From a virus, in IMG/VR virus record IMGVR_UViG_3300047462_000772, positions 1 through 34,338 of that record: a stretch of DNA of 34,338 nucleotides; one strand, written 5' to 3'. This document shows, one piece after another, positions 11,462-29,281 of the stretch. Each line of letters begins with the position of its first letter. The first letter of the stretch is position 1. The notes beneath the pieces are model-generated. The model was not told the origin of the DNA. It ran no database searches and worked only from the letters and a program-made list of their open reading frames with translations. A program made the position numbers and the translations under genes.

Positions 11462-11782
11462 CTATTCGCACCAGAATCGTTTATTTTCTAACCGGCATTT
11501 TTTGACATTCAGCGGAAGCTCAATATCGGTTTCTATTTTTGAATATTTATTTGGATAGCAATGAACTGTCACCGGAATATCCGTAGGTTTATTTGATAAA
11601 TAATTCCATTCCTGAGGATCGTTATCGATATCATCATCCACATCGGGAGGAATTAACACGGGGAATGGTTTTTCATGCCCTACTTCTACACTGACATGAG
11701 AAACGATAAATGGGCACTCTAAATTTTCTGCTTTAGATGATGAAGAAATAAACAATAAAAATATAAACAGAATCTTAACCAT
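11462..11782 (-). CDS. Periplasmic immunity protein for the amidase toxin (STY0301-like)
   Basis: 106 residues with a signal peptide (MVKILFIFLLFISSSSKA, likely cut before ENLECP), so exported. Paired cysteines (ECPF, HCYPNKY, KKCRL, WCE) suggest disulfides. The layout, with VTVHCYP followed by a C-terminal RFWCE, resembles the STY0301 family that accompanies cell-wall amidase effectors. It starts ten bases after the toxin stop, and a periplasmic location fits protection against a peptidoglycan-cutting enzyme. The gene is A+T-rich compared with the tail genes on both sides. The family name is a judgement from pattern, not a search. Confidence 0.7.
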   Translation of the reverse strand: MVKILFIFLLFISSSSKAENLECPFIVSHVSVEVGHEKPFPVLIPPDVDDDIDNDPQEWNYLSNKPTDIPVTVHCYPNKYSKIETDIELPLNVKKCRLENKRFWCE

Positions 11783-11792
11783 TTATTTTATC

Positions 11793-12719
11793 CTAAGGAT
11801 TAATAGTATAATATCGTGATCCACCTTCACTGGTATTATTTCCCCAGGCACTCCATGGAATACGAGAGATCGTTGGGCTTTGGCCACTCCACTGATTCAA
11901 AATTGTAATGCCCTCGTTGTCTTGTCCCAAATATATACCGGTATGGCTCATACCTGACAAGCCTCCCGGATTGTTGGCCGAACCATATCCGTTAGTGCCA
12001 GGTTGGCCATGATAATTGAACGTTGCAATTGCAGTGCCCACGGGGATGTCGGAATTACCCTGTACCAGCTCTCCCCTTTGCCATTGGCTGGCCGGCGGCA
12101 AATCTGGCGTCAGCGATCTGGTAAGCGACGCGCAGTTGCTATTTGGCCCGAGATATTGGCCATCCGAACTTTGAACAATTGCTTGCGCATCGGCGAGGCT
12201 ATTGATGCTTGGCGCTGTGTAATAAGTTGAAAACGATGATGGCATTTCAGACGACGGCAGGTTCGCCTGTCCATAATCCGGCCGGTAGCTGGCGAATTCT
12301 ACTCCCGGCATCAAACCATTAATGCGATGATTATTATCTTGATTATCTGAAGATAGCACCGGTGAAGCAGGTTCACGACCGCTTCCACCGTCACCACCCT
12401 CGCTCGTCCATCTACCCTGATCATCTCTTGGCTCGTTCGGGTCAAAACCAGCCTTCGCCAGCTCCGCCCGCACCTGCGCCTCGATCTTGATGTCCGGCTC
12501 GCCGAGATGGACCAGGGCGATCAGCGCCAGCGTCTGTTCGCCGCGATTCCAGGCTTTGATAGCTTTCTTGATGGTCGCCAGCTGCCCAGGATCGGCCAGG
12601 ATCGCCATCGCCGCTTCATTGGGTTGCAGCCGGTTGCCCTGCCGCTTGGCCAGCGGGCAAGCCCGCAGCATCAGGCCAGCCTCATCGATCGTCAAAGCCG
12701 CTTTACGAATGATCAGCAT
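11793..12719 (-). CDS. Polymorphic toxin 1: shared N-domain plus BPSL0067/NlpC-like amidase
   Basis: 308 residues. Residues 1-91 are the N-domain shared with three other genes here (MLIIRKAALTID, KAIKAWNRG near 52-60, ALVHLGEP); the linker GFDPNEPRDDQGRWTSEGG is near 91-109. After a low-complexity stretch (110-180) the C-terminal domain has a catalytic-type Cys in NSNCASLTR (C196) and His in GMSHTGIYLGQD (H259), plus ITILNQW and RIPWSAW, resembling BPSL0067/CHAP-type amidases that cleave peptidoglycan peptides. It overlaps the NlpC/P60 tail gene by seven bases and is followed by a secreted immunity-like gene. Inserted between GTA gp14- and gp15-like genes. Confidence 0.8.
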   Translation of the reverse strand: MLIIRKAALTIDEAGLMLRACPLAKRQGNRLQPNEAAMAILADPGQLATIKKAIKAWNRGEQTLALIALVHLGEPDIKIEAQVRAELAKAGFDPNEPRDDQGRWTSEGGDGGSGREPASPVLSSDNQDNNHRINGLMPGVEFASYRPDYGQANLPSSEMPSSFSTYYTAPSINSLADAQAIVQSSDGQYLGPNSNCASLTRSLTPDLPPASQWQRGELVQGNSDIPVGTAIATFNYHGQPGTNGYGSANNPGGLSGMSHTGIYLGQDNEGITILNQWSGQSPTISRIPWSAWGNNTSEGGSRYYTINP

Positions 12720-13186
12720 CGCAAATTCCTCTCTGATCCCTGACCTCTGACATCTGATATCTGACCTCTGAAATCGACCGCGCTAAAAAACCGGCACTTC
12801 CGCTCCGCCAGCGGATGCTGGTCGCCATTGGCCAGCACCACGCCTTCTCCGACATAGGCATGGATCAGCAGCGGCCAGCGCACCACGATGCCGGCATGGC
12901 TGAAACAGCGCCCGAACTGGAACACCGCCACATCGCCCGGCCCAGGGGCCAGCACCGGTGCGGCATAATCCTCCAGCCAGCCGAGATAGCGCTCCTCGCC
13001 GCGATGCAGGTGCCAGTCGGGCGGGTAAGGCCGCGGGTCGATGGGCGGAATCACGCCCGCCGCGTGATAAACCGCCACCAGCAGCATGGCGCAGTCGGTG
13101 CCGGCACCCTTCACCATGCCCTCGTGATGGTAGGGCGTGCCCAGCCAGCTTTGCGCTTCTGCCACGATGGTGTCGCGCAGACTCAC
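12713..13186 (-). CDS. NlpC/P60 peptidase of the tail tip (GTA gp14-like)
   Basis: 157 residues. Cys-peptidase motifs: GTPYHHEGMVKGAGTDCAML (catalytic Cys near residue 32), and CFSHAGIVV with the His near 96; further acidic or polar residues follow in LIHAYVGEGV. In GTAs and related phages this enzyme at the tail tip opens the cell wall during DNA entry. The start overlaps the hub gene by four bases. The last 15 or so residues (ISDVRGQGSERNLRC) are encoded by a run of six tandem heptamers at 12730-12771, which looks like a late addition to the coding end. Confidence 0.9.
   Translation of the reverse strand: MSLRDTIVAEAQSWLGTPYHHEGMVKGAGTDCAMLLVAVYHAAGVIPPIDPRPYPPDWHLHRGEERYLGWLEDYAAPVLAPGPGDVAVFQFGRCFSHAGIVVRWPLLIHAYVGEGVVLANGDQHPLAERKCRFFSAVDFRGQISDVRGQGSERNLRC
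12730..12771 (-). repeat. Six tandem heptamers, consensus TCAGRKR on the minus strand
   Basis: Reading the minus strand from 12771: TCAGAGG, TCAGATA, TCAGATG, TCAGAGG, TCAGGGA, TCAGAGA. The array overlaps the end of the NlpC/P60 gene and ends 11 bases before the start codon of toxin 1. Three similar units lie 30 bases upstream of toxin 3 (21016-21036) and two near the prophage left end (2470-2483). Confidence 0.75.
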
Positions 13187-14064
13187 AACGCTGTTTCCGC
13201 CGGCGGGATGTAGGGAAAGCCGCGGAACCGCGTCAGGTTGTTATACTTGAATTGGCAGGTATTCATCGTCTTGTCGCAGCCCGGCCAGACGGTGAAAGTA
13301 TCGCCCGCCGCCGGGGTGGTGCTGAGCGGCATGATCAGCGTCAAGATGCCGCCGGCCCAGCCGGCAATGCTGGCCTGCTGGCCGGTGGCGACACCGCTCG
13401 TCATCTTCAAATAACCCTGCGCGTAATATCCCGCTGGTTGCGACAGGGCGGTGACGATCTGCTGCGCCGTGCTGCCGGCCAGCACGCTGCTGGTCACTGC
13501 ATAATTTGCCGCGTTCAACCCACAACCTGTATCGAACAAAGTCCGAGAACAGCCCGGCTGATAGAGATTGCGCGGCATCTGAATATCCAGCAGTTCGAGG
13601 TCGGAGCGCACGGTCAGCACCGCGCTGGTGCGCGTCGCCGTCACCGATCCCACCCGCCCTTCGAACAGCGGCACCGAGCCCGCCGTGGTATCGCCCCAGT
13701 ACGGCACGCCATTTTGGTTGTAGAGTGGCATGAAAACGCGCTCCAGCCGCAGCCGCGCCCCATCCAGCATCCCCTGCTGCAGTCCCACCAGAAATTGCGT
13801 CGCGCCGATCAGGTCGGTCGCGGCGGGGTAGAGGGTGATCTCCAGCTCATCCACTTCCAGCCCGATCACCGTCTTGGTGCGGCCGCGCTCCAGCCGCAGG
13901 GTGGAGCCGAAATAGGTGTAGATATATTGGAAAATAATATCGGCCCCGGCATCGGTCAGCCGCAGCACCGTGCCGTTCGCCAGCGTGAACGTATAAAGAT
14001 CGGCCATCTGGTACTGGTTGGTCGTCGCCAGCAGCGTTGCCAGCGCGGTCGAGACCGTCTTCAT
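13183..14064 (-). CDS. DUF2163 tail hub protein (GTA gp13-like)
   Basis: 293 residues from the ATG at 14064, which overlaps the preceding stop by four bases (ATGA). The N-terminus KTVSTALATLLATTNQYQMADLYTFTLANG and ...LEVDELEITLYP are typical of DUF2163 proteins. The C-terminal PGCDKTMNTCQFKYNNLTRFRGFPYIP, with paired cysteines, is the diagnostic end (compare CxxRFxNxxNFRGFPxxP). In the GTA tail this forms the hub between distal tail protein and baseplate and may bind an iron-sulfur cluster through the conserved cysteines (known for the family). The order hub, then NlpC/P60, then large baseplate is the GTA order. Confidence 0.92.
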   Translation of the reverse strand: MKTVSTALATLLATTNQYQMADLYTFTLANGTVLRLTDAGADIIFQYIYTYFGSTLRLERGRTKTVIGLEVDELEITLYPAATDLIGATQFLVGLQQGMLDGARLRLERVFMPLYNQNGVPYWGDTTAGSVPLFEGRVGSVTATRTSAVLTVRSDLELLDIQMPRNLYQPGCSRTLFDTGCGLNAANYAVTSSVLAGSTAQQIVTALSQPAGYYAQGYLKMTSGVATGQQASIAGWAGGILTLIMPLSTTPAAGDTFTVWPGCDKTMNTCQFKYNNLTRFRGFPYIPPAETAL

Positions 14065-14678
14065 GGCGCGATGCCCATGAGGTCGACCTGGCCCCACGTC
14101 CATAGCTTGTTGGCAAAGTTCTCGAAATTCGCGGCATCGTCCTTGAAGCGCACCCGGAAATAATAGCTGAAGCTGGCATAGACATTGTAGCCATAGGGTG
14201 GTGCCGCCCCGAATTCGATGGCGTTCGCCCCGCTATAGCCGGCGACGCCGGTATAGGTGAAAGTCGAACCCGCCGACTGCGCGGTGGGGCCCGCCGTTAC
14301 CGTCCCCATCGCGTTCAGCGCCCCGACCGGCTCGGTGATAGTGGAGAGCACGGTGCGCTGCAGGCGGAAAATCTGGGTGAAGCCGTCGGCCGCGCCCAGA
14401 TACTGGTTGGTAACGCTGCAATCGGTCGGGTCGGTCAGCAGGAATTCGTCGAACGAGCCCTGCCGCGCCAGGAAGAACTCCAGCATGGTGCGGAATTCCT
14501 GGGTGGAATCATCGCGCAAAACCGGAAAAGTCAGCTGGAAATCGTAGACGGCGTTGCGGAAGGTCGCGGCGCGCAGTTCGCGCCCGCTGGCGGCGGTCTG
14601 CACGAGCGTATTGAAGCGCGGCTTTTTATAGACGCTCCAGCCCTGGCCGGGAAAGACCGGAAATGGCGTTGAGGACAT
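14061..14678 (-). CDS. DUF2460 distal tail protein (GTA gp12-like)
   Basis: 205 residues. The start MSSTPFPVFPGQGWSVYKKPRFNT matches the DUF2460 signature (FP.L.G.GWSV.K.P.F.T.). The middle FFLARQGSFDEFLLTDPTDCSVTNQYLGAADG and the final FRVRFKDDAANFENFANKLW also fit. These proteins form the ring joining tail tube to hub. The gene follows the tail chaperone end by 15 bases and is coupled to the DUF2163 gene by an ATGA overlap. In the usual order a tape measure gene would lie directly before it; here none does. Confidence 0.92.
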   Translation of the reverse strand: MSSTPFPVFPGQGWSVYKKPRFNTLVQTAASGRELRAATFRNAVYDFQLTFPVLRDDSTQEFRTMLEFFLARQGSFDEFLLTDPTDCSVTNQYLGAADGFTQIFRLQRTVLSTITEPVGALNAMGTVTAGPTAQSAGSTFTYTGVAGYSGANAIEFGAAPPYGYNVYASFSYYFRVRFKDDAANFENFANKLWTWGQVDLMGIAP

Positions 14679-14693
14679 GCGGTGTCTCCCTTA

Positions 14694-14957
14694 TTATTTT
14701 GATACCGTCCCGCCCAGCTGGCCGAACACACTCAGCAGATCTTCCAGCCGGCGCGAGGGACTAGCCGCTCTTTCAGGTGGCTTCAGCCCCATTTTTGCCG
14801 CCAGCAGCAGATGCACGGGCGGGTGGTCGCGCCAGTAGCGGGTCAACAGGCCGAACTCGCCGAAGGTCATTCCATCGATCGTCGGAAAATCCCAGCCACA
14901 CACAGTGGCCAGCAGGCCGTAAATTTCGTGCCATTCGATTTCCGGCTGGCTGGCTAC
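14694..14957 (-). CDS. Tail assembly chaperone, T-part reached by -1 frameshift
   Basis: Open frame with conserved-looking sequence EIEWHEIYGLLATVCGWDFP, then TFGEFGLLTRYWRDHPPVHLLLAAKMG. The homologous-looking part begins upstream of any in-frame ATG or the GTG at 14903, inside the end of the preceding chaperone gene. It is therefore best explained as the gpT-like extension of a gpG-gpGT pair made by a -1 shift at 14957-14963. The predicted joint is ...DDFAGG/VASQPEIEW. In siphophages the G and GT forms coat the tape measure during tail assembly at a fixed ratio. Confidence 0.7.
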   Translation of the reverse strand, partial: VASQPEIEWHEIYGLLATVCGWDFPTIDGMTFGEFGLLTRYWRDHPPVHLLLAAKMGLKPPERAASPSRRLEDLLSVFGQLGGTVSK

Positions 14958-15280
14958 TCCCCCGCGAAATCGTCCGCGCGAGCCTCCGCCGTCGGCCGCG
15001 CCAGGCCAGAGCCGGTCAGCACTGCGCTGATCAGGATGGGCACATCGGCAAAGGTCAGCCGGTCTTCGAGATCCTCCCGGGAAAGATCGGGATAGTTGCG
15101 GCCAAGCGCCGCATGCGCGATATCGACCACCGCATCCAGCTGCCCGGCATCGAAGCCGGCTGCCGGATCCTGCAGCCGGTCGAGCTTCGGCAGCAGCGTC
15201 CGCAATTGCCGGAAAGTCAGCGCCGGTACCACGAACTCGTCACCGCCCAGCCTCACCGTCAGTCCCTCATGCATGCTCAT
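14954..15280 (-). CDS. Tail assembly chaperone, G-part
   Basis: 108 residues: MSMHEGLTVRLGGDEFVVPALTFRQLRTLLPKL, then VVDIAHAALGRNYPDLSREDLEDRL. Small, acidic and helical, matching GTA- and lambda-type tail assembly chaperones (gpG). The start overlaps the major tail protein stop by four bases. The end contains GGGGGAG immediately before the TAG stop, suited to a -1 ribosomal frameshift into the T-part. Confidence 0.82.
   Translation of the reverse strand: MSMHEGLTVRLGGDEFVVPALTFRQLRTLLPKLDRLQDPAAGFDAGQLDAVVDIAHAALGRNYPDLSREDLEDRLTFADVPILISAVLTGSGLARPTAEARADDFAGE
14957..14963 (-). other. Probable programmed -1 frameshift site
   Basis: Minus strand reads GGGGGAG followed directly by TAG, with zero-frame codons GGG-GAG. 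After a -1 slip the P-site pairs perfectly with GGG and the A-site with GGA. The conserved T-part is open in exactly the -1 frame. The heptamer is not one of the strongest known slip sites, so the position is likely but not certain. Confidence 0.6.
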
Positions 15281-16017
15281 TCTCCAAAGCTGATTGTGCC
15301 GATGTTCTGGCTCGCGTCGCCATAGGCAGAGAAATCCAGTTCGGGGATGGTGAAGTTATCGTTCTTCGTCGCGAGGCTAAGCTTGCTGGCCACGCAGGCA
15401 TTCAGAGTCAAACTCAGCGGCTTGCCGTTGAAAGTCTCGGTGAAAACCGCCTGGAAAGTCGGCCCGCTACCCATCACCTGGTTGGCAATCGCGGTGCGAT
15501 TACCGCCGCTGGACGTATAGGTGTACGCGATAAGTACACTCGCCCCGGCATCACCGGCGGCAAAGGTGTAAATGCCCCCGGAAGTGCTGACCGCGTACTG
15601 TCCTGCCGCCGGAGCGGACGCGACCTTGGTCAGCGCCAGCCCCGTCGTAGCATAAGTCACGCCAAGGTCGGTAACGAATGTCGCGCCGTTGGTCGCCGTC
15701 ACCTGATAGGGGTTACTGGCCGGCACGGCCCACGGCTCGGACGGAATATTCACCACACCGCCGGTAGCAAGAGTCTGGCCGAAGAACAGGTTGTTGAACA
15801 GCGCACCGTTCACCTGTGCAAACTTCGCCTTGCCGGTGATCTTGCCCTGGCCGCGCGCGATGGTCAGCGGGAACTGGTTTTGCCCGTAGAGCTCGCGCGT
15901 CTGGAAGGTGAAATCGATCTGGATATCCTGCAGCGCGCCGAACTTTGCCGGCGTGGCATTGGCAAGATCGCTGCGCACGCCGTACAGCGTGCCGCTGCCA
16001 AAACTGAACTGGGTCAT
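15277..16017 (-). CDS. Major tail (tube) protein
   Basis: 246 residues. MTQFSFGSGTLYGVRSDLANATPAKFGALQDIQIDFTFQTRELYGQNQFPL is the usual start of tube proteins in this phage group (a reference to pre-set geometry followed by an ELYG motif); ITGKAKFAQVNGALFNNLFFG follows. A probable Ig-like insert around residues 100-175 precedes a C-terminal SLTLNACVASKLSLATKNDNFTIPELDFSAYGD, where the tube-domain continues. Located 35 bases after the tape measure gene and overlapping the chaperone start. Confidence 0.85.
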   Translation of the reverse strand: MTQFSFGSGTLYGVRSDLANATPAKFGALQDIQIDFTFQTRELYGQNQFPLTIARGQGKITGKAKFAQVNGALFNNLFFGQTLATGGVVNIPSEPWAVPASNPYQVTATNGATFVTDLGVTYATTGLALTKVASAPAAGQYAVSTSGGIYTFAAGDAGASVLIAYTYTSSGGNRTAIANQVMGSGPTFQAVFTETFNGKPLSLTLNACVASKLSLATKNDNFTIPELDFSAYGDASQNIGTISFGE

Positions 16018-16052
16018 CTTGGGTTCCTTTTTCTATGATGTCGTGGAAAAAC

Positions 16053-16856
16053 TCAGCCGCCGGGAAGGGCGAAATTTCTCTGTTGCTGCTTCAGTCCAGA
16101 AACGATCTGGCCCATATTGTTCTTGATGAAGGCTGCCGCCGACTGGGAGTCGATGGCGTTGATATGAAAATGGGTATCGCCACCGCCCGCACCGGCGCCG
16201 TTATTAGCGTTTTCGACCATCGTATCGAGGCCCTGGCTGTATTTTGCCGGCAGAATTTTCTCGTCCTTGTGCACATAGGCCAGCGTATCTTCCGGCACTT
16301 GCCAGCCGCCGGCCGCCGAGGCGATGGAACTCGCCGCCGCCGCCACGGTCGCCTGGGCAGAAGCCGCCGGCACTGCCGCGCCCGGCCCCAGTGTCGGCGA
16401 GAGATTGGCGAACACCCCGGCAAAGGAGGTGAGCGCGCTGTTGTTGATGCTGCTGATGGCACTTTGTGCCAGCGAGGCCAGCATCTGGGTCGAGGCATCC
16501 TGTGCGATCGCCGTCTGGCTGTTGGCCCCGGCGAGGCTCGCCGCCGTCAAAGCGCCCTGCGTCGCCGTCCAGCTCGCGGTCATCGTCTGCCCCAGCGAGG
16601 CGAAATCGCTGGCAATCGCCTGGTTGGCCAGTTGCAGTGCCGTCTGCGTCGCGACGCCCTGGGCATTGATGCCGGTGAAGGTCGTCTGGATGAACTCGTT
16701 CACCTGGGAAAACGAGGCCGTCATCTGGGTGGTGAGATTACCCCAGCTCTGCTGCATCTGCGCGGCACTACCGGCCACGGCATCGTTGGCGCTGGCGAGG
16801 CCATCGGTCAGCGGCCCGGTATCGGCGCCAATCTGAATAGAAACGCGGTCGACCAT
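16053..16856 (-). CDS. Short tape measure-like tail protein
   Basis: 267 residues, Ala/Ser/Gln-rich and helical, beginning MVDRVSIQIGADTGPLTDGLASANDAV, a tape-measure-type start. The C-terminus (DTHFHINAIDSQSAAAFIKNNMGQIVSGLKQQQRNF) is typical of tape measure ends in GTA-like phages, and VHKDEKILPAKYSQGLD is a common motif before it. The short length fits a short GTA-like tail. Unusually it lies upstream of the tube protein instead of after the chaperones. Its ribosome-binding site (GAGGT) is inside an element duplicated at 19482-19549. Confidence 0.75.
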   Translation of the reverse strand: MVDRVSIQIGADTGPLTDGLASANDAVAGSAAQMQQSWGNLTTQMTASFSQVNEFIQTTFTGINAQGVATQTALQLANQAIASDFASLGQTMTASWTATQGALTAASLAGANSQTAIAQDASTQMLASLAQSAISSINNSALTSFAGVFANLSPTLGPGAAVPAASAQATVAAAASSIASAAGGWQVPEDTLAYVHKDEKILPAKYSQGLDTMVENANNGAGAGGGDTHFHINAIDSQSAAAFIKNNMGQIVSGLKQQQRNFALPGG

Positions 16857-16916
16857 GGGGTACCTCGTGATGTAAATTGAAGATAGCCGTCAGCGGCAGC
16901 ATCGGGCGATGCGCCA
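16854..16916 (-). repeat. Cassette 3'-flank element, copy A
   Basis: Shares with 19482-19549 the start-codon region CATGGG, ACCTCGTGATGT and, further on, GTCAGCG and GCATCGGGCGATGCGCC (plus-strand notation). The latter contains an inverted repeat GCATC/GATGC at 16899-16912. It lies between the immunity gene of cassette 2 and the next structural gene and includes that gene's Shine-Dalgarno sequence. Confidence 0.7.
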
Positions 16917-16924
16917 GCCGGAGG

Positions 16925-17320
16925 TCAGTCGCGATAACTGGAGTCGGTTAGTACTGCCGCCGAGCGGGGGGGACGATGAATCAAATTACCTTCTGCGTCG
17001 TAGTCCGCTCGTTTGGCAAACCAGCAGTGATCGCTAGCGAGCGTCGGAATACCTACAGTAGGCCAACTAGCAGAAATTCTAGCGAGAAGTTCATCTGATG
17101 TGCCTTGCCAGAAATTGAAACCGAGATCAGCCTTCATATAACCTGGACACACGCCATTAGCGATCAAGCCACGGGCGACCTGCAGCGATTTTTTCTTCAC
17201 CTCTGCATCAGATGTTATTTTTTGATTGAAACTGAATCGCGAGGCAAGCTGGGCAAGAGCCACAATATCAATTTCTGCTTCACGCGTGTAATCCTGGATT
17301 ATCTCTTCTATAGTTTCCAT
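16925..17320 (-). CDS. Immunity-like protein of cassette 2
   Basis: 131 residues, no signal peptide, hence cytoplasmic. Clearly a paralogue of the protein at 19576-19956: shared blocks include KSLQVARGLI, VCPGYM, FNFW-GT-DEL, SWP, GIP-L and HCWFAKR--YDAEGN. It begins one base after the end of the toxin 2 remnant (17322), the same spacing as in cassette 3. The predicted job is to bind and neutralise the toxin domain. No named family recognised. The open frame is intact although its partner toxin is frameshifted. Confidence 0.75.
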   Translation of the reverse strand: METIEEIIQDYTREAEIDIVALAQLASRFSFNQKITSDAEVKKKSLQVARGLIANGVCPGYMKADLGFNFWQGTSDELLARISASWPTVGIPTLASDHCWFAKRADYDAEGNLIHRPPRSAAVLTDSSYRD

Positions 17321-17321
17321 T

Positions 17322-18324
17322 TTAATCTCCGAGATAATGGACCTTAAAGAATCCTGTAGTCGGCAGGTTTATATCAAGAGCCGGTGGACCGCTTTTGGTG
17401 CTGGTACGCAATCCTATAGTACCCATATATCCGGGCAAGGCCATCAGTTTTCCATTGAACCCTGGCGGTGTTACATCGCGGGCGCCTATTGTCAGGTAAT
17501 TAAACGCTGCTTGTGCTGCTTTGAAACCTCCCGGCATTTCTCTTGCATCTTTACTTCCACCTGCTTGCCCATGAGCTGACCATCAGGGCTCACGAAATCG
17601 GTTGCCCTTGCAACGAGATCGGACCAAGCTTCGCCTCCAGATCATCAGCGGCATCGCCACTTGCAAGATCTTCATCACTATATTTTGTTTTTAGAAACTC
17701 ACTATCCGGGTCAAGCTGGCGCAATGTGTTCTGTACGCCAATAAACCTGGCCATGCCCGGCGTCAGGCCAAAGATCCCCTCTTCGCTTTCCTCCTCGCCG
17801 GGCTCTTCCTCGGGTGGAAGTTCAGCCTGCACCGGTGTGGCGGAAGGCAGCACTGGCTTACCGTCAGCATCGAGCGTCGTGTGGTAAACGCCATCGTCGA
17901 TGGTGCCTACATCAGTATCGCTGGTCTCGGTATTGCCAGGCGACGTGATCGTAACGGGCTGCTTGGCAGCACTACCGCCCTCGCTCGTCCACATCCCCTG
18001 ATCGTCGCGCGGCTGGCTGAGGTCGAACCCCGCCTTCGCCATGCGCAACAGCTCGCAATGCCGCAACCAACCAGGGCTGGGCAATGCTGGCCCCAGCTCC
18101 GGTGCACCCAGATGCACCAGCTTGATCAGGGCAAATGTTTTCTCGCCCCGGTTCCAGGCGGCGATGGCCTTGCTCACCGCCGCCGCCTGCTCAGGCCGCA
18201 CCAGCCGGCTAACAGCCGCCGGTCGGGCTTTCAGCATCCCGCCGCAAACCTGCGCCAGCTTGAGCGTCCCATAGTGCAAGCCATCTCCATCGATGGTGAG
18301 CGCCGCTTTCTGACTGGTCAGCAT
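17322..18324 (-). pseudogene. Polymorphic toxin 2, frameshifted
   Basis: The intact N-terminal frame (18324 to 17590, 244 residues) carries the shared domain (MLTSQKAALTIDGDGL; KAIAAWNRG near 52-60; linker GFDLSQPRDDQGMWTSEGG near 99-117). Compared with toxin 3, colinear sequence then continues in other frames: DLVARATDFVSPDGQLMGKQ in the -1 frame, then GGSKDAREM...NYLTIGARDVTPPGFNGKLMALPG in a further -1 frame to a stop at 17322. Two one-base losses, near 17620-17630 and near 17561, explain this. Either the toxin has decayed while its immunity gene survives, or the assembly has two indel errors. Start ATG has a good GGAGG. Confidence 0.8.
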
Positions 18325-22713: not shown

Positions 22714-22741
22714 AAAAAAGCCGCTTAAGGGCGGCTTTTTT
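22714..22741. terminator. Perfect bidirectional terminator between immunity 4 and the capsid gene
   Basis: Inverted repeat AAAAAAGCCGC (22714-22724) / GCGGCTTTTTT (22731-22741), loop TTAAGG. On the minus strand it follows the immunity 4 stop by about 23 bases and precedes the capsid start by about 80, so it would limit read-through from the cassette into the capsid gene. Confidence 0.85.
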
Positions 22742-22764
22742 CAGAGTTGAAACTGAGTGCGTGT

Positions 22765-23328
22765 TTAGAACGCCAGCAGCCAGCTTTCTGCGTCGTAGAC
22801 ATTCATGAAAGCCATGGAGATATTCTTGATAAGATTATCCATGTAGCTCTGATCGACGAATTTCTTTTCGACTTCGGCTTCGTCAACGGTGACTTTGCTC
22901 ACAAAGCCCTTTGAAAAGTAGTTTCCTAAATGCAGCTTGTCATCGATGGTTTCATACGTGAACTGGTTCTGGTTCAGGTATTCATAAACTGTTTCTCCAG
23001 AGAAAAAAAATCCCTGATGTTTATCAATATAGTTGTCGTCAGGACTATCGAGACAATCAATGACGATCAGACAATTCTTATCTTGCCCCTGCAAAACCTT
23101 CTGTAGATAGTCGATAAATGCGTCGTCGCCATTCCAATACTCTCCAGTTTTAAAGTTCATCGCACGCTCCAGCGACGTACCCTCTGGCACGAACGCCAGG
23201 CAGTGTGTGAAGTTCTCGAAGCAGGGCCCAACCTGCGGAGGAATTTTATTACGCCAGCCGTAGAATTCGCTGCGCATGTAGTCGAGGCCCGGCTGCTTGA
23301 GATCGAGCGCAATATACTTACTCATCAT
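22765..23328 (-). CDS. Immunity-like protein of cassette 4
   Basis: 187 residues (start at 23328 or the next ATG, 23325), no signal peptide, acidic and aromatic-rich (EFYGWRNKIPP, GEYWNGDDAFIDYLQ, LIVIDCLDSPDDNYIDKHQGFFFSG). Typical of cytoplasmic immunity proteins that mimic nucleic acid or cap a nuclease, but no family is recognised with confidence. It starts two bases after the toxin 4 stop and ends before a strong terminator. Its A+T content is clearly higher than that of the neighbouring capsid gene. Confidence 0.7.
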   Translation of the reverse strand: MMSKYIALDLKQPGLDYMRSEFYGWRNKIPPQVGPCFENFTHCLAFVPEGTSLERAMNFKTGEYWNGDDAFIDYLQKVLQGQDKNCLIVIDCLDSPDDNYIDKHQGFFFSGETVYEYLNQNQFTYETIDDKLHLGNYFSKGFVSKVTVDEAEVEKKFVDQSYMDNLIKNISMAFMNVYDAESWLLAF

Positions 23329-23330
23329 GA

Positions 23331-24149
23331 TCAGGCCTCCTCATTAAACACGAAGCTTCTTGGTTCCATGGTACCATCAGGAAACCAGCGATAACCATCT
23401 TTATTGGGGTAGTTCGGTGTGCGAAATTTTGGCACGTAGTCATAGTGCGGTTTAATGGGCGGTTGATGATCGAAGTCCGGATGCAAGCTACTTCCATCCT
23501 TGCGCTTAACCCAAGCGCCTCGATCATCACCCGGCTGACTTTCCCGGCCGCCGTGCCACTCATGATCCGGCGTCGGTGGTTTGGTGGGATCGTCTGGAAA
23601 TTTGTCTAAAGGTGGCTTAACCATGTTCGGCAAATCATCATCTGGGATCTCCTCTGGCGAAAGCCCGTCCTCGGGAAATTCCCCATTGGGCAGCTCCTCC
23701 GAACTCGTCCCCGGCAGGAACAGCTCCTGCGCTGGCATGTAGCCAGCCGGCTGGTAGCTTGCACCGTCAGCGTCATCGTCGGCGCTCTCGTGCCGGCTAT
23801 CGCCAGCCGCAGCATTCTCGCTCGTCCATCGCCCCTGCGCGTCGCGCGGCTCATTAGGATCAAACCCGGCTTTCGCCATGCGCACCAGGTACTGGTGCCG
23901 CAGCCAGCCCTTGCTTGGCGCTAATTCAGGCTGGCCGAGATGCAGCAGGTAGATCAGCGCCGTCGCCTTATCGCCCCGGTTCCACGCGGCAACGGCCTTT
24001 ACCACCGTTCCCTGCGCCGCCGCCGGCAACCGGTTGAGCGCCGCCGGATAGGGCTGCAACACGCCCTGCCGCGCCTTCGCCAGCTTCACCGACCCCAGCC
24101 GCAGCCCGGCATCGTCGATCGCGAAGGCGCTCTGGCGAATGATCAGCAT
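23331..24149 (-). CDS. Polymorphic toxin 4: shared N-domain plus Ntox37-like C-terminus
   Basis: 272 residues. Shared N-domain (MLIIRQSAFAIDDAGLRLG, KAVAAWNRGDKATALIYLLHLGQPEL, GWLRHQYL), linker GFDPNEPRDAQGRWTSEN at 95-112, then an acidic Pro-rich spacer (LPNGEFPEDGLSPEEIPDDDLP). The C-terminal 60 residues (RGAWVKRKDGSSLHPDFDHQPPIKPHYDY ... YRWFPDGTMEPR) resemble the polymorphic toxin type 37 (Ntox37) pattern, thought to be a ribonuclease; this identification is from memory of the pattern. Inserted six bases after the prohead protease gene, before the capsid gene, and followed by an immunity-like gene. Confidence 0.78.
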   Translation of the reverse strand: MLIIRQSAFAIDDAGLRLGSVKLAKARQGVLQPYPAALNRLPAAAQGTVVKAVAAWNRGDKATALIYLLHLGQPELAPSKGWLRHQYLVRMAKAGFDPNEPRDAQGRWTSENAAAGDSRHESADDDADGASYQPAGYMPAQELFLPGTSSEELPNGEFPEDGLSPEEIPDDDLPNMVKPPLDKFPDDPTKPPTPDHEWHGGRESQPGDDRGAWVKRKDGSSLHPDFDHQPPIKPHYDYVPKFRTPNYPNKDGYRWFPDGTMEPRSFVFNEEA

Positions 24150-24155
24150 GGTCGA

Positions 24156-25052
24156 TCAAAACAGTCTGATCGGATTGCGATGCGCCTCCCTGATCAAGCT
24201 CAGCGTATCCTGCGGCTCGGCGGCCTTCGCCAGTCCGTCCGCGCTCTTGTCGACCGCCAGCAGCACGCCCTTGCCCGGCAACGGCTGCCGGCTGAGCCGC
24301 TCCAGCTCGGCGGCAAGCTGCGTGCACTGGGCGCTCATCTTCGCGATGCTGGCCTCATACTTGCGGATGTCGCCCAGCGCCACGCTCATTGCCACCGTAT
24401 CGTCCTCGGTACTGGCCACCGTTCTCGGCTTGCGCGCTTTTGCCGGCGCCCTGGCTGGAGCCACGGCGACCGGCGCCGCCACCTCGCCACCGGCATCGAG
24501 ATACGCTTTCAGTGGCTTCAACAACGTAAGGATCGTCGCACCATTTTCCCCATCCGCCGCTGCCAGCGCCTCATTAACCGCATTCTGCAAATCGCTCCAC
24601 CAGTCCGGCTCGTCGTCCTGGCCCGCCACGCTCGTCACCTTGTAGATGTCGAATACCGCCTCGGGGTTGGCCGGCCGGTCGACCAGGCTGATCTCGTGCA
24701 GCTCGATCTGGGTGATCACATGGCGGTTGGCCGGATCGCGCTTCAGCGCCTTGCCGCCGATCGAAAACCCTTTGTAAACACCCTCTTTCACCTTGTGCCA
24801 GGCAAGCGGATCGACCACCTTCGCTGCCAGATAAAGCCCCTTGTGATCGATCGAGGCTTCTTTCGCCACGCCCACCGCCGAGGCGCCGTGCATTTCCCGG
24901 ATATTGGCGAATTTCAGGTAGCTCGGCAGCGCCGCCTCCAGCGCCTCGCGCTTGACGATTTCGTGCTGGCTGTCCAGCGCCTCGGTCGAGGCATAGCCGA
25001 AGACGAGCTGCTGCTCTTCGTCCAGCTTGGTGATGGTGGCGAATAGTTTCAT
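24156..25052 (-). CDS. Prohead protease with C-terminal scaffold-like region
   Basis: 298 residues. Residues 1-140 are a serine protease of the HK97 prohead type (S78/U35-like): QQLVFGYASTEALDSQHEIV, then REMHGASAVGVAKEA with the catalytic-type His near 54, and HEISLVDRPANPEAVF, with Ser near 121. The Ala/Pro/Lys-rich middle and the coiled-coil-like end (RKYEASIAKMSAQCTQLAAELERLSRQ) look like a fused scaffold. The last residues (DTLSLIREAHRNPIRLF) echo the capsid N-terminus. Located between portal-side genes and the capsid, as expected. A terminator hairpin lies upstream at 25092-25111. Confidence 0.85.
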   Translation of the reverse strand: MKLFATITKLDEEQQLVFGYASTEALDSQHEIVKREALEAALPSYLKFANIREMHGASAVGVAKEASIDHKGLYLAAKVVDPLAWHKVKEGVYKGFSIGGKALKRDPANRHVITQIELHEISLVDRPANPEAVFDIYKVTSVAGQDDEPDWWSDLQNAVNEALAAADGENGATILTLLKPLKAYLDAGGEVAAPVAVAPARAPAKARKPRTVASTEDDTVAMSVALGDIRKYEASIAKMSAQCTQLAAELERLSRQPLPGKGVLLAVDKSADGLAKAAEPQDTLSLIREAHRNPIRLF

Positions 25053-25085
25053 GGGTCCTCGTCCGGTTAGGGGGAAATGCGGGCA

Positions 25086-25111
25086 ATAAAAAAGGCGCCC
25101 GGAGGCGCCTT
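25086..25111 (-). terminator. Intrinsic terminator upstream of the prohead protease gene
   Basis: Stem AAGGCGCC (25092-25099) / GGCGCCTT (25104-25111) with a CGGA loop, followed on the minus strand by a run of T residues (to about 25087). It would end leftward transcripts from the gene at 25219-25434. It implies that the protease-capsid part has its own promoter or depends on antitermination. Confidence 0.75.
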
Positions 25112-25120
25112 GGTATTTAT

Positions 25121-25190
25121 TCCCTCTCCAGGGGGAGAGGGCTGGTAAGGCTTGGCCTGCAAGGCCTTAGACTTACCGGGTGAGGGGCGG
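25121..25190. repeat. Host-type extragenic palindromic sequence
   Basis: CCCTCTCC (25122-25129) pairs with GGAGAGGG (25134-25141). A second hairpin pairs GGTAAG (25144-25149) with CTTACC (25172-25177) around GGCCT/AGGCC, and GGGTGAGGGG follows. This arrangement looks like the dispersed intergenic palindromes of proteobacterial chromosomes. Its presence inside the head module is unusual for phage DNA. Confidence 0.55.
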
Positions 25191-25218
25191 CGGCAGGAAT
25201 AAGTCGCCGACCGTTGGA

Positions 25219-25434
25219 TTATCTAATATGAAATCCGAGCTTCACTTTCTCTTCCACCTTATACAAAGCCTCGCCGCTGGCATTCAACAGCCCGGAATAG
25301 ACCGGCGCGTTGTCCTGCTCGAAAATGGTCACGCTGTCCGGCATGTGAATATAATCGTCGACCGCGCTGTCGTAGTAACTGGCGCGCGGCGCGGCAGGTT
25401 TTAAGCCCGGTAGTGTCGTGTAGCGCGTGGTCAT
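25219..25434 (-). CDS. Small conserved phage-type protein
   Basis: 71 residues: MTTRYTTLPGLKPAAPRASYYDSAVDDYIHMPDSVTIFEQDNAPVYSGLL ... KVEEKVKLGFHIR. No signal peptide or membrane segment. The content SVTIFEQDNAPVYSGLLNASGEALY suggests a small conserved virion-related protein found near head genes of related phages; the function is unknown. GAGGG lies just before the start. It is isolated by a terminator downstream and by a gene-free 237-base stretch (25435-25671) upstream in which I see nothing. Confidence 0.6.
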   Translation of the reverse strand: MTTRYTTLPGLKPAAPRASYYDSAVDDYIHMPDSVTIFEQDNAPVYSGLLNASGEALYKVEEKVKLGFHIR

Positions 25435-25671
25435 TCCCTCATTCCCTGTCCTGGAGTTGGTATGGCCGGAGACCCTTTTCGCCCCTTCTATCCGGCTCTT
25501 ACTATGGCATAGGAATGGTTAATTTAAGCTTTATATGAAGCGCAAGTTAATTTTGTTCCATGTCAGCAAAAATTTTTCTGCGCCTGCACCAGCGAGTCGA
25601 GTAAGCGATCATTATATATTAAAAAAGATGCCACCTGACATTAGAGTGGATCAACCACTTTGTCTCCCAGA

Positions 25672-26409
25672 TTACTCTTCTATAATTATTCCCAAGTTTA
25701 TCTCAGCAGCGACCGTTACCATTAATTTGATGCGTAGCTCTGTGTTAAGATTTGGTGTAAAAGTTTTCCATCCAGCCTCATACTCAAAGTACGAATCTAG
25801 TGGATCTCTCTGATCGTATGGATCTGGTTTCGCCAAGCTAAGTATCGTTTGATCAGATGATAATTCAGAGTATATATCCCAATACGCTTTGGTCCAATAA
25901 GTTAAATATTCCTCATAGTCATCTGACTTTCTCCATGGCTTGTTTGGCGTGTCACAAAGTACGCTGTATCCTTCTTCGAAGAGCCACTCTGTAAGATTAG
26001 AAGTACTTGTATCTAATAGTGGATTGGGATAGTCGACACTACCCAAATCCAGCCTTTTTTCTGGAAATCCTGGTATGTGGCCATCGAGCCGTTGGTCAAC
26101 CATCCGACAAAGCTGCTTCACAAGATGTCCTCCTTGTGAAATAGTCCGAATGGCTTTTTTTTGACCTTTGAGCTGAGAGGAAACAGGTAGGCCAGCAGTG
26201 AACAAGTGCTGTTGAGTCGAAGGTAGGCATTGGTCCTTTAATGCATGTGCCAGATACACGATCGCCGCTGAGAGTGGTAGGCCCGCCCACATATATAAAG
26301 CTATTATCTTTTGAACAGCTGTAATGCCCCATAGTAAATTTAGAGTGTCAATGTTTAAAGAGCTTCTCCTAAGAAAATACTCATATAAGTCCATCTTGCG
26401 ATACTTCAT
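25672..26409 (-). CDS. Unpaired A+T-rich gene, probable orphan immunity protein
   Basis: 245 residues from the ATG at 26409 (MKYRKMDLYEYFLRR); the frame is open to 26529, but the extra 40 residues (basic, odd composition) overlap the portal fragment region and are unlikely. Strongly A+T-rich, with charged and aromatic C-terminal half (NKPWRKSDDYEEYLTYWTKAYWDIYSEL). The protein resembles cytoplasmic immunity proteins in composition, and it follows a displaced portal fragment exactly where the immunity gene follows the portal-fused toxin. No partner toxin is visible. No family recognised. Confidence 0.6.
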   Translation of the reverse strand: MKYRKMDLYEYFLRRSSLNIDTLNLLWGITAVQKIIALYMWAGLPLSAAIVYLAHALKDQCLPSTQQHLFTAGLPVSSQLKGQKKAIRTISQGGHLVKQLCRMVDQRLDGHIPGFPEKRLDLGSVDYPNPLLDTSTSNLTEWLFEEGYSVLCDTPNKPWRKSDDYEEYLTYWTKAYWDIYSELSSDQTILSLAKPDPYDQRDPLDSYFEYEAGWKTFTPNLNTELRIKLMVTVAAEINLGIIIEE

Positions 26410-26525
26410 TATCCTGTTTTTCCCTCTAATGCCTTTCCGAGAGCAACATATTCTAATCAAGATGGCTCTTAAATGTTTAATACGCGCTAAGATATAAATA
26501 CGCCTCACCGGGACACCCTTTCTTT

Positions 26526-26774
26526 CCACTGGAACTCGATCTCCGGCTCCCCGAAATAATCCGCCAGCAGCCGGTCCAGCAACTCCTTCACCCAGCGCTG
26601 CCCCGTTGGATCAGTGGGGGCACCAGACCCTCGGTCGTCGCCGTCTCCTGCTGCGTTTCGGCTGTCGCCCGGTTGGTTTGCTTCACGAAGGCCGTCGGCG
26701 GCAGGCTGAACGCAAAGCACACCACCCACGCCAGCCACTCGTCGAAATCGTCCTTCAGCACCGGCTCGCGCAAG
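26526..26774 (-). pseudogene. Duplicated fragment of the portal gene
   Basis: Close copy (roughly 90 percent by eye) of 28131-28364 in the portal gene, encoding REPVLKDDFDEWLA-VVCFAFSLPP and RWVKELLDRLLADYFGEPE with an extra short insertion near 26601-26619 that breaks the frame. One end abuts the stop of the immunity gene at 26778; the other ends at the codon for EFQW. It carries no usable start. This is the remnant of a second portal tip, probably left when a toxin-immunity cassette was exchanged by recombination within the portal gene. Confidence 0.85.
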
Positions 26775-26777
26775 TTG

Positions 26778-27275
26778 CTACGGTGTCTGTTCCCCTACAT
26801 AATCATCAGGCAAAGAAATTACGGCTATCGGAAGAAATTTTCCATTTTTGAAATTATAATAATACTCACCGTTTGGACGTTCTTCATCAGGCCGTCCGCG
26901 AAACATGATCAAACTACTATCAACTTTGAAATCGAGCGGATCGAAATAATCTGAGTTAGCCGATGCAATGTAATAAGGAAACCAAGTTACGTAACCAGTC
27001 TTTGCATCAAATATGAAACCACGAATACACTCTGTACCGCAACCAAATGTACTTACTATATAATGGCCTGCAAAATTTGGCTTTAAGCCTGAAGTACTCC
27101 ATATTATTGTACGATAATAATGATCATTATTTCTGAATTTTGGCTTATGAGTTAATCCTTTATAGTAATCACTAACCGGATATTGTTTAAAGTTTGGCCT
27201 TTGTTCATCCGCAAAAGCATTTGCAAAGAAAGTAGCGTAAAACAGGGATGCTGAAAAAACGAGAGCCTTGACCAT
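26778..27275 (-). CDS. Periplasmic immunity-like protein for the portal-fused toxin
   Basis: 165 residues with a signal peptide (MVKALVFSASLFYATFFANAFA, probable cut before DEQRP). Mature part has NFAGHYIVSTFGCGTECIRGFIFDAKTG, a pattern seen in small exported proteins next to cell-wall-directed toxins, with two cysteines likely forming a disulfide. The start codon overlaps the portal-toxin stop by one base (TAATG), so the two are translated together. Export fits protection against a lytic transglycosylase acting on peptidoglycan. A+T-rich compared with the portal. Confidence 0.72.
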   Translation of the reverse strand: MVKALVFSASLFYATFFANAFADEQRPNFKQYPVSDYYKGLTHKPKFRNNDHYYRTIIWSTSGLKPNFAGHYIVSTFGCGTECIRGFIFDAKTGYVTWFPYYIASANSDYFDPLDFKVDSSLIMFRGRPDEERPNGEYYYNFKNGKFLPIAVISLPDDYVGEQTP

Positions 27276-29281
27276 TAATACTTTCCCTTTTCATTCCATA
27301 CTGCACGTGCCCGAGCAACAGATTTATAGTGATTTAAAATATACCTAATCCCGCCTTGGGCCTCTTCAACTGCGTTGCCAAAAGATTTTTTACCACGGGG
27401 ATTAAAGTGATAGTTTTGTTGAGTCAGCTGAAAAAGCCCTCGCGCGGATGATGGTTTACTTCCTGGCTGAGGATGATTTCGTTCATCTACTTCTCCATTC
27501 GACTCCTGTGTCATAATCCAAGCTAGATCATCATATTGATCATCTGGGATACCTTCAAGTTGCATTGCTCTTCGCAAAGCATCCTTTGAAGATTGTGGAA
27601 TATTATCCGGATCTTTTTCTACCCACTTGTCCCCAAGTGGTGCCGGATGAATTCCAGAAAGATTAGCAAATTCCACCCCTGGCATCAGCCCGTCATTGAC
27701 GATTGTATCCTCACCATGAACAACCAGCGGAGTGGCTACAAGGCTCGTATCGGCGGAAGCCGCAGTGCCGCCGTCGCCGCTACCATCATTCGGCGCTTCC
27801 GGGTTAGGTGCCGGATCGGGCCGGATCGTGATGTGCGGCACGCCATTGCTGTCGACGTCCACGTCCGGCTCATCATCGCCGCTCAGGGTCGCCGGTGCAT
27901 CGCCGGAACTCCCGTCCTCGCTCGTCCACATACCGTGATCGTCGCGGGCCTGGTTTGGGTCGAAGTTGAACTTGCCGACTGGGGCCGGGCTGAGCGCCGG
28001 CCTTCCATCCAGCAAATTCTTCCCCAGCCCCAGCTCATCGCGCACCTCGGCCACGCTCTTCACCCCCGCCGCCAGGTAGATCTGGTTCACCTGTGCCTGT
28101 ACCAGCGGGTCGAGCGAAGGCGTCGTCGCCCACTGGAACTCGATCTCCGGCTCCCCGAAATAGTCAGCCAACAGCCGGTCCAGCAGCTCCTTTACCCAGC
28201 GCTGTAGCGGTACCAGCCCCTCGGTCGTTGCCGTTTCCTGCTGCGTCTCGGCCGTCGCGCGGTTCGTCTGCTTCACGAAGGCCGTCGGCGGCAGGCTGAA
28301 CGCAAAGCACACCACCCGCGCCAGCCATTCGTCGAAATCATCCTTCAGCACCGGCTCGCGCAAGGGCTGGTACTTCAAATCCCCCGGCACGAACTTCGTA
28401 TGCCGGCGGGCGGCGAGGTTGCCCTCCAGCAAGCTGTCCCAATAGGCCTGGAACTGGCTGATCTGATCCGGCGTCCAGTCGTTCGGCACGCCGATCAGCG
28501 CTTCCGGCGTGTTGCCCTCGGTATAATAGTTCAGCACGCTCACCTGCTTGCGGAGCGCGATGTTTACCGTCATTACGATCTGCTCGACCGGGCCCATCCC
28601 GTAGATCTTGTGCGGGCGCGGGTTGCGGGGCAGGTACAGCAGCTCGTCCGCCGCATAGTCCACCGCCGGCAGCCCCTTCAGCACCTGCTGGTAGGCGACC
28701 GAGGGCGGCAGCGGCGTCCGCCCCCGCTCGTCCAGCACCCGCTTGATCGTCGCGCCGTCGATCACTTCAAGGGCATAGGGCTGGCCGCCGACCGTTCGCC
28801 GCAGGTACAGGGTCGGCGCGTCCAGCACTAACAGGTCTTCCAACAGCAGGCGCAGCCACTGCGTCCAGCAATGCTCGCCATCCGGGCGGGCAAGGAACCG
28901 CTGCAGCGCCTGCAATTTGGCCGGATCGGGAGTCGCGGTCGAGCCCGGGCGCTGCTGCAGCGTCCAGTCCAGCTTTTCGATCTGGTCCTTGCGCGTTTCG
29001 ATGATCAGGCGCAGCAGATCGTAGCTGTCGGCGAGCGCCCGTAGCTGGTGGAAGCTGATCGGCTCTTCCGAGCGTGGCCGCGCCAGCACGTTATATCCCA
29101 CCGGGTAATCGAAGGCGCGGCCGGTTACGCTCGCCGGCGCCTGCGGGGCCAATGGCTGGGAAGGGCCGAACCAGTCGCTTGGCGTAATACCGGTTACGGC
29201 ATAGCGCAGCCCGGCCGCCACGCGCTGCACCACCCCGGCGGGCACGGGCGTCACTTGGGCAACGGTTTCGTCACGGGCCAT
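27275..29281 (-). CDS. Portal protein with C-terminal toxin extension (transglycosylase-like)
   Basis: 668 residues from the ATG at 29281 (GAGAGG upstream). Residues 1-415 are an HK97-type portal: PVGYNVLARPRSEEPISFHQLRALADSYDLLRLIIETRKDQI, EVIDGATIKRVLDERGR, LPRNPRPHKIYGMGPVEQI, DDFDEWLARVVCFAFSLPPTAFVKQTNRATAE. After the usual end comes the linker FDPNQARDDHGMWTSE (440-455), shared with the four toxins, an Asp/Pro-rich spacer, and a lysozyme-like domain: MTQESNGEV with Glu 593, then SARGLFQLTQQNY, the SLT transglycosylase pattern. The portal C-terminus normally faces the capsid interior, so the toxin may be packaged. An exported immunity gene follows immediately. Confidence 0.88.
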   Translation of the reverse strand: MARDETVAQVTPVPAGVVQRVAAGLRYAVTGITPSDWFGPSQPLAPQAPASVTGRAFDYPVGYNVLARPRSEEPISFHQLRALADSYDLLRLIIETRKDQIEKLDWTLQQRPGSTATPDPAKLQALQRFLARPDGEHCWTQWLRLLLEDLLVLDAPTLYLRRTVGGQPYALEVIDGATIKRVLDERGRTPLPPSVAYQQVLKGLPAVDYAADELLYLPRNPRPHKIYGMGPVEQIVMTVNIALRKQVSVLNYYTEGNTPEALIGVPNDWTPDQISQFQAYWDSLLEGNLAARRHTKFVPGDLKYQPLREPVLKDDFDEWLARVVCFAFSLPPTAFVKQTNRATAETQQETATTEGLVPLQRWVKELLDRLLADYFGEPEIEFQWATTPSLDPLVQAQVNQIYLAAGVKSVAEVRDELGLGKNLLDGRPALSPAPVGKFNFDPNQARDDHGMWTSEDGSSGDAPATLSGDDEPDVDVDSNGVPHITIRPDPAPNPEAPNDGSGDGGTAASADTSLVATPLVVHGEDTIVNDGLMPGVEFANLSGIHPAPLGDKWVEKDPDNIPQSSKDALRRAMQLEGIPDDQYDDLAWIMTQESNGEVDERNHPQPGSKPSSARGLFQLTQQNYHFNPRGKKSFGNAVEEAQGGIRYILNHYKSVARARAVWNEKGKY

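Follow-up and report, generated by a model that had tools for sequence, protein, structure and literature searches.

Putative polymorphic toxin-immunity modules on virion proteins of a likely prophage

What do genes with toxin-like ends do among the structural genes of a virus? This question was raised by the IMG/VR virus record IMGVR_UViG_3300047462_000772, analysed here over positions 1-34,338 (34,338 nt, hereafter the window). A late virion operon on its minus strand runs in the order TerL, portal, protease, capsid, connector, tail genes, gp12, gp13, NlpC/P60 and then megatron, and an initial annotation had described five modules in it, each consisting of a protein with a variable C-terminus (the tip) and a small immunity-like gene. 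Judging from sequence, the five modules are probably polymorphic toxin-immunity cassettes on virion proteins, which particles would deliver to other cells and whose antidotes would protect cells that hold the operon. The features are collected in Table 1, with T1-T4 for the four free carrier genes and I1-I5 for the putative antidotes; L and G numbers denote related loci and genomes.

The window was analysed by translations and all-against-all BLASTP, and the results showed that T1, T2, T3 and T4 have in common an N-domain of about 110 residues and a PRDxxGRWT-type linker. T2 and T3 were 69% identical over 239 aa (E 5e-104), T1 and T3 51% over 117 aa (E 3e-25), and T1 and T4 42% over 166 aa (E 5e-34). 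In the alignment of N-domain plus linker, 42 of 123 columns were invariant in all four carriers, so the similarity goes far beyond chance. The portal has only the linker region in common with the carriers (E 2e-9 to T3), where it joins the portal to a fifth tip. The family of four genes and the fifth linker copy, both claimed by the initial annotation, were borne out, and the context map placed the modules between virion genes as claimed. The tips were also said to differ; they were indeed unlike one another in BLASTP, except those of T2 and T3, which are related.

The N-domain of T1-T4 gave no family match in Pfam, PHROGs or NCBIfam. For the MuF domain (PF04233, PF06152) there was no Pfam match at E 0.05 and no PHROG match, which leaves room for very distant kinship, and Rhs repeats or a two-partner secretion N-domain gave no Pfam match either. 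The four genes are not directly downstream of the portal gene; they lie elsewhere in the operon. A fold model of the carrier reached fair confidence (pLDDT 78, pTM 0.61) and found no Foldseek match at E 0.001 in PDB and BFVD. Its best VIA Z was 3.4, with several weak rows for TPR proteins (FimV TPR3, Z 3.1), and one related carrier (L189) had a sub-threshold TPR_14 match (0.0012); nothing firm is drawn from either.

By their sequences, four of the window modules look intact. The T1 tip is a predicted Tae2-type amidase (NCBIfam BPSL0067 8e-13, 48.7 bits against a cut-off of 27; PDB 6win, Tae2, 1e-7), and I1 showed a weak likeness to the STY0301 family (0.018, below cut-off). The portal tip appears muramidase-like, with an NCBIfam AggPromo_Cterm match at residues 595-678 (5.3e-7, below the curated cut-off). 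A relative of its antidote I5 was found in L189 of genome G730 (4.5e-16, and 2.9e-13 in a second comparison), where it adjoins a Pfam SLT tip on a free carrier. The T4 tip is homologous to the portal tips of L209 (G754; 1.1e-13) and L210 (G752; 3e-12), which match Ntox37 at 6e-4 and 1e-3 (20.7 and 20.1 bits), below the curated cut-off of 27.8; T4 itself had no Pfam match, and its tip no relative in viral contigs. Ntox37 is nuclease-type. A relative of I4 adjoins the Ntox37-like portal tip of L209 (5.5e-5). Tips like that of T3 recur in L229 and L230 (1e-13) and L212 (1e-5): in L229 behind a different N-part with a similar linker, just upstream of a terminase-like open reading frame (ORF); in L230 as an orphan cassette behind a MuF protein (Phage_Mu_F 2.7e-11, SPP1 gp7 5.6e-13); and in L212 behind a portal. 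A structure model of the T3 tip was too poor for use (pLDDT 51), the best hits of the T3 and T4 tips among solved structures (E 0.11 and 1.8) were taken as chance, and neither tip had relatives in plasmids.

The spacing and composition of the modules were consistent with cassettes. From toxin stop to next gene the distance was 10 nt for T1, 1 nt for T3, 2 nt for T4 and -1 nt (overlap) for the portal. The claim of five modules, each with a small gene a few bases behind, stood, with one correction: module 2 is disrupted, its tip lying in another frame as a separate ORF ahead of the intact I2. G+C content falls along all five modules, from 62-67% in the carrier or portal core to 50-57% in the tip and 35-49% in the immunity gene, against 60-67% in the measured virion genes. 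Behind the portal module lies a displaced partial copy of the portal 3' core, which matches the portal in two stretches of 91% and 93% identity (87% over 249 columns with gaps); together with the orphan immunity-like ORF that follows it, this is as expected when one tip replaces another.

Table 1 Operon, carriers, tips and putative antidotes in the window
Feature	Position (strand)	Remarks
Late virion operon hosting the modules	8047..30923 (-)	TerL, portal, protease, capsid, connector, tail genes, baseplate hub, NlpC/P60, split megatron
Portal with linker and tip	27275..29311 (-)	Phage_portal 5e-25; C-terminal linker (FDPNQARDDHGMWTSE); muramidase/SLT-like tip (AggPromo_Cterm)
I5	26778..27275 (-)	putative periplasmic immunity to portal tip; predicted signal peptide
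Displaced partial second copy of portal 3' core	26526..26774 (-)	tipless
Orphan immunity-like ORF behind displaced copy	25672..26529 (-)	likely start inside the ORF; G+C 41%
T4	23331..24149 (-)	carrier domain, linker, Ntox37-like tip
I4	22765..23328 (-)	putative cytoplasmic immunity to T4; 2 nt after T4
T3	19958..20986 (-)	carrier domain, linker, tip outside known families
I3	19576..19956 (-)	putative immunity to T3; 1 nt after T3; 59% identical to I2
T2	17590..18324 (-)	carrier domain and linker; tip disrupted, stop after the 239 aa 69% identical to T3
T2 tip remnant	17322..17537 (-)	out of frame, separate ORF; 55% to T3 residues 279-340
I2	16925..17320 (-)	putative immunity of module 2; intact; 59% identical to I3
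T1	11793..12719 (-)	carrier domain, linker, Tae2/BPSL0067-type amidase tip
I1	11462..11782 (-)	putative periplasmic immunity to T1; predicted signal peptide; 10 nt after T1

The first N-domain profile matched nothing in viral contigs and a single genome contig; relatives were reached through the portal and through wider profiles. The portal query of viral contigs was followed up in the best 80 of 195 matching loci. The N-domain or linker was present in some of these loci and in 19 of the 44 whole records or genomes searched, with many different tips; named phage and plasmid records gave no match to the N-domain or to a related carrier with its tip. With the narrower profile A3 the carrier was rare: at least 2 of 297 genomes of one order and at least 4 of 385 of one class, both including the seed genome G001. 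These counts are lower bounds, since in most genomes no more than 11-14 candidates were scored. The wider profile A6 found it in 16 of 39 genomes of one alphaproteobacterial family. On the portal itself, linker and tip occurred in at least 11 relatives (L003, L006, L019, L024, L046, L207, L208, L209, L210, L212 and L213).

Toxin-type or wall-hydrolase Pfam domains were found in 6 of the 20 related carriers and portals scanned: Pesticin on the portal of L024 (1.5e-37), Phage_lysozyme (L141), SLT (L189), Tox-REase-5 (L133) and CDI_toxin_EC869_like (L134, L174). The other 14 showed nothing beyond portal. A second scan of 10 proteins gave two weakly Ntox37-like portals and one MuF protein. Among 10 antidote candidates scanned, three were Imm52 (5e-21, 2e-27 and 9e-27), and all three follow tips of the Tox-REase-5 cluster, one of which is named Tox-REase-5 by Pfam itself; one DUF2019 and one TPR match lay above cut-offs, one HEAT-like match below, and four had none or chance-level matches. 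Zhang 2012 (PMC3482391) lists Tox-REase-5 together with Imm52. Several tips were named by look as HNH (L175, L183, L187), deaminase (L046), Ntox44-like (L024, L005) or JAB-like (L029, L205); those scanned had no such Pfam or NCBIfam match. A second carrier subfamily with a PPGPGGGQFTSG-type linker (L011, L026, L027, L037, L039, L090, L199) was also seen, mostly near the tape measure and with one antidote family; its tips look like PD-(D/E)XK nucleases (FEVKSG/FELKTG), and that of L026 had no Pfam match. A TPR-type antidote family recurs as well (L003 10359-10844, L182, L186, L194, L234 4901-5425), at several loci with short cysteine-rich tips, on the portal (L003) and on free carriers, and G730 was seen to hold the antidote alone where G731 has the pair.

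We next consider whether tips and antidotes travel together. From 74 carrier rows, removal of tips shorter than 60 residues left 62 tips; as antidote we took the longest ORF (60 aa or more) whose start was no more than 65 nt away (n=53, including the window orphan), and 52 loci had both, T2 being entered as tip remnant plus I2. Among pairs of loci, 52 had the same tip cluster, 39 the same antidote cluster and 33 both, against 1.55 on average and at most 11 in 2000 shuffles. A single group of seven orthologous loci accounts for 21 of the 33, so that this figure overstates independence, and swaps between anchors carry more weight than the count. Window-type tips recur on other virion anchors, two of them with antidote relatives (the I5 family of the portal tip, and I4). 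The slot between gp13 and NlpC of G730 and G731 holds orthologous carriers (55% identical, 8e-46) with tips dissimilar at E 1e-3: G730 has an SLT tip whose antidote is predicted to be secreted, and in G731 both tip and antidote are related to those of L175 and L183 in other genomes. No carrier was seen in this slot of G753. The portal tip of G730 is 47% identical to that of G753 and unlike that of G731. The tail region of G730 further holds a Tae2 tip (BPSL0067 1.7e-26) attached to a different short N-part; behind it come two small proteins, both with a predicted signal peptide, and a module 50% identical to it occupies the same slot of G731. A contig of G692 (L138, L225, L227, L228) was noticed to carry several incomplete portal 3' ends, of which some have linkers and differing tips, resembling displaced cassettes.

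The antidotes also differed in predicted location. Signal peptides were called by one simple hydrophobicity rule, and the results showed them on all 7 antidotes of wall-degrading tips (six modules) and on 0 of 8 of nuclease-type tips (p 1.6e-4, with rule and sets chosen after the sequences had been read, the rule replacing a looser measure, and with members partly related). By the same rule none was found on T1-T4 or the portal, nor on any of 13 virion proteins. L136, L176 and L196 entered the nuclease set by clustering with L134/L174, L181 and L191 by clustering with L133, and T4 and L209 by the weak Ntox37 link; without these last two the count is 0 of 6. For the L141 antidote, which lacks a canonical start upstream of the hydrophobic stretch, the reading began at an in-frame codon, and for L189 antidote b at a position before the first ATG. 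Tips without a family match were left out of both sets; among their antidotes, those of L213, L029 and L205 pass the rule, and those of L208 and L190, I2 and I3 fail it. A secreted antidote for a toxin that is not exported would be useful mainly if the toxin arrives from outside, so the predicted secreted antidotes beside toxins without signal peptides point to attack from outside.

To see where carriers lie, slot contexts were tabulated; most were found via the portal or in viral contigs and are biased towards virion operons. Early slots were before TerL (L005), between TerL and portal (L003) and between portal and protease (L200). In the head region they were between protease and capsid (T4, L201, L202), capsid and connector (T3, L205), and connector and tail completion (L011); in the tail region after tail completion (T2, L024, L093) and after the tube/gp10 genes (L026, L027, L029, L039, L090). 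Late slots were between gp13 and NlpC (L189, L248), between NlpC and gp15 (T1) and after gp15 (L175, L197-L199). The idea that the protease gene end repeats the capsid start as an insertion scar was considered and dropped, as relatives end similarly. In the alphaproteobacterial family, 30 of 32 rows were tabulated, two second pieces of broken copies being omitted. Three of the 30 carriers sit within a virion operon or are attached to a portal fragment, and two more lie 27-29 kb from a portal, just past an operon. The family profile misses some carriers, such as that in the gp13-NlpC slot of G731. Near lone carriers no conserved partner gene was found, the widest non-carrier cluster being ABC transporters at 8 of 30 loci. 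Portals of this type were detected in 18 of the 39 family genomes, in two of them (G615, G725) as fragments only, and carrier and portal occur together in 11 (Fisher p 0.025, uncorrected for kinship or completeness).

Taken together, the polymorphic toxin-immunity architecture put forward by the initial annotation is strongly supported by known toxin domains, Imm52 beside its toxin, co-inheritance, and tip exchange in one slot; what we found was an N-domain outside known families, joined to tips with toxin homology. We propose that a carrier domain or the portal holds, through the PRDxxGRWT-type linker, an exchangeable C-terminal toxin, and that the next gene encodes its antidote. As the particle assembles, the carrier, like the portal, would place the toxin inside it or on its surface. 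In HK97-type portals the C-terminus points into the capsid. The linker may be the site where tips are freed, and the operon encodes an S78-type protease. Packaged in particles or released with them, as we infer, nuclease-type tips would reach the cytoplasm and wall-degrading tips the periplasm of other cells; cells holding the operon would survive by their own antidotes, and recipients without antidotes would be killed or arrested.

Other explanations account for part of these data. True toxins might be released by lysis or another route without being borne on particles, the virion neighbourhood giving late expression only. Many carriers of the alphaproteobacterial family, which lie among ordinary genes, would fit this, but linker and tip on the portal itself in at least 11 relatives, and a linker common to carriers and portal, make it unlikely. 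It is very unlikely that the tips are ordinary virion enzymes, such as wall-piercing lysins or DNA-ejection helpers, with small accessory genes and no part in antagonism. Virion-associated wall hydrolases are common, the same operon has an NlpC/P60 peptidase, and two window tips and several relatives resemble peptidoglycan enzymes; however, the same kind of carrier bears nuclease-type toxin tips, Imm52 antidotes accompany some of them, and tips are swapped at one slot. Least credible, and barely so, is a role within the lysogen itself, in intracellular toxin-antitoxin action, abortive infection or superinfection exclusion: the genes are paired and some antidotes look cytoplasmic, yet portal fusions, predicted secreted antidotes for toxins without signal peptides, and tip families in common with secretion-system toxins all speak against it.

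Several observations also weigh against particle-delivered toxin cassettes. In the family, 25 of the 30 carriers had no virion gene in their flanks (at most about 10 kb on each side, and less on many short contigs) and were not beside an operon, and 5 of the 16 carrier-bearing genomes had no portal detected. The T2/T3 tip belongs to no known family, and the orphan immunity-like ORF had no family match in Pfam, PHROGs or NCBIfam. Profiles connected neither I1 with the antidotes of other Tae2 modules nor I2/I3 with the gene that follows the T3-like tip of L229; the L003 antidote reached the I2/I3 profile at E 1.4 only. The orthology behind the co-inheritance count and the late choice of the signal-peptide rule belong here as well.

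As for the operon itself, gp13 matched TIGR02218, the baseplate hub of phages and gene transfer agents (GTAs; 1.4e-32). The GTA-type megatron is split into separate ORFs, a first part at 10040-11413 and a later part at 8047-9666, with partial matches of 1.8e-36 and 3.5e-13, both below cut-off; in G731 (L248) it is a single ORF of about 1,050 aa. Labels such as gp6 and tail completion were assigned here after the RcGTA order. A short tape-measure-like ORF (16053-16856, 267 aa) stands before the tail-tube gene, and after it in relatives L026 and L248. A 631-residue ORF at 3721-5616, with Fn3-like repeats and an SGNH-hydrolase-like end by look, is in tail-fibre position, and two adjacent histidine-phosphatase-like (phosphoglycerate-mutase-like) ORFs at 31101-32646 lie just upstream of the terminase region, an unusual placement. 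At the left end of the window are host-like genes, htpG-like and GNAT-like by look. The window was taken as a prophage because it holds a divergent Cro-like and S24-type repressor-like pair (33355-34338, at the right contig end) and a lysozyme-like gene (2850-3707). That all modules belong to one prophage is likely on these grounds rather than proven: no integrase was seen before the element is cut off at the right end of the window, and in three other genomes the homologous operon looks chromosomally fixed.

Downstream of the operon, these genomes (G730, G731 and G753) share one host block, in which MFS genes and HrpB and, for G730 and G731, also PrkA and SpoVR were named by look; HrpB is 27-32 kb away from the portal. 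HrpB lies far from the portals in G692, and in G754 the HrpB contig ends beside HrpB. The flank is shared in 3 of the 4 genomes where this can be judged. G734 has HrpB and an MFS gene with no operon within the 20 kb examined, and upstream flanks mostly differ among relatives. Between G730 and G731, virion proteins were 58-86% and flanking host proteins 67-91% identical (one antidote 53%); between G730 and G753 the values were 38-79% and 50-62%. Virion proteins thus diverge to the same order as their flanking host proteins. No tyrosine integrase (E 1e-8; serine integrases were not sought) was found on the portal contigs of G730, G692, G753, G754 and G733 (14.5 kb), the sole one on the G731 contig lies about 1 Mb away, and no tRNA was found near the downstream junction. 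These data fit both vertical descent of a GTA-like locus, for which criteria are given in PMC9662315, and repeated integration of related prophages at one site. A bolder and less likely reading is that in at least one alphaproteobacterial family the operon has turned into a fixed, host-owned, GTA-like particle with exchangeable toxin tips on portal and carriers, onto which further carrier-toxin pairs scattered over the same chromosomes are loaded in trans; the window would then be a mobile or early form.

The concept of virion-linked polymorphic toxins is already published: MuF toxins are known (PMC5576092, Jamet 2017; PMC3482391, Zhang 2012), SPP1 gp7, itself of the MuF type, is a portal-binding protein, and entry into the host along with DNA was proposed for MuF toxins (PMC5576092). 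Like those of temperate phages, the window modules combine a virion-gene neighbourhood, a conserved N-domain and a variable toxin C-domain, and a relative of the T3 tip stands behind a MuF protein (L230); unlike them, T1-T4 have no MuF profile match, several modules share one operon, portals carry tips, and wall-degrading tips have predicted secreted antidotes. Bxa and Bacteroidales prophage toxins, for which antibacterial activity and neutralisation were shown (PMC11699363), likewise have a common N-domain, various tips and adjacent immunity genes; their N-domain is called MuF there, in contrast to the window carriers, for which no MuF match was found. Apk2 is a further virion-linked polymorphic toxin (PMC12226406). 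As with the type VI secretion effector Tae2 and its immunity protein, antidotes with predicted signal peptides stand beside the T1 tip and that of L189 3661-4410, both of which match the family, but the window enzyme is the tip of a longer protein in a virion operon. Tip exchange, orphan cassettes and tip families (EC869-like, Tox-REase-5, Ntox37) are held in common with CDI/Rhs toxins, whose Rhs or two-partner secretion domains had no match on T1-T4. Among the window tail genes the hub (TIGR02218), NlpC and, in part, the megatron have matches to GTA-associated families, as in RcGTA (PMC9662315). The repressor-like pair and lysozyme-like gene set the window apart from RcGTA, and a related operon may be fixed in one bacterial family as with RcGTA-type agents. 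The window gene order is like that of RcGTA, on which we know of no toxin tips. A literature search, which covered few subscription journals, found no portal-borne polymorphic toxins, toxin-bearing gene transfer agents or this arrangement. As far as these searches go, the carrier family with N-domains outside Pfam, PHROGs and NCBIfam, the portal-borne tips, several modules per operon, the pairing of wall-degrading tips with antidotes predicted to be secreted, and the hint that an armed operon has become fixed are new.

If particles do carry such toxins, temperate phages or their domesticated relatives would deliver protein weapons against targets in the cytoplasm as well as the periplasm, and lysogens would gain kin protection from antidotes besides the repressor. 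The open question of MuF biology, whether virion toxins are injected and for whose benefit, becomes directly testable with four intact-looking modules in one operon; two of these have recognisable wall enzymes and predicted secreted antidotes, and the portal fusion suits a simple mass-spectrometry question. An armed GTA-like particle, if true, would be a capsid-bearing weapon in the role of a type VI secretion system.

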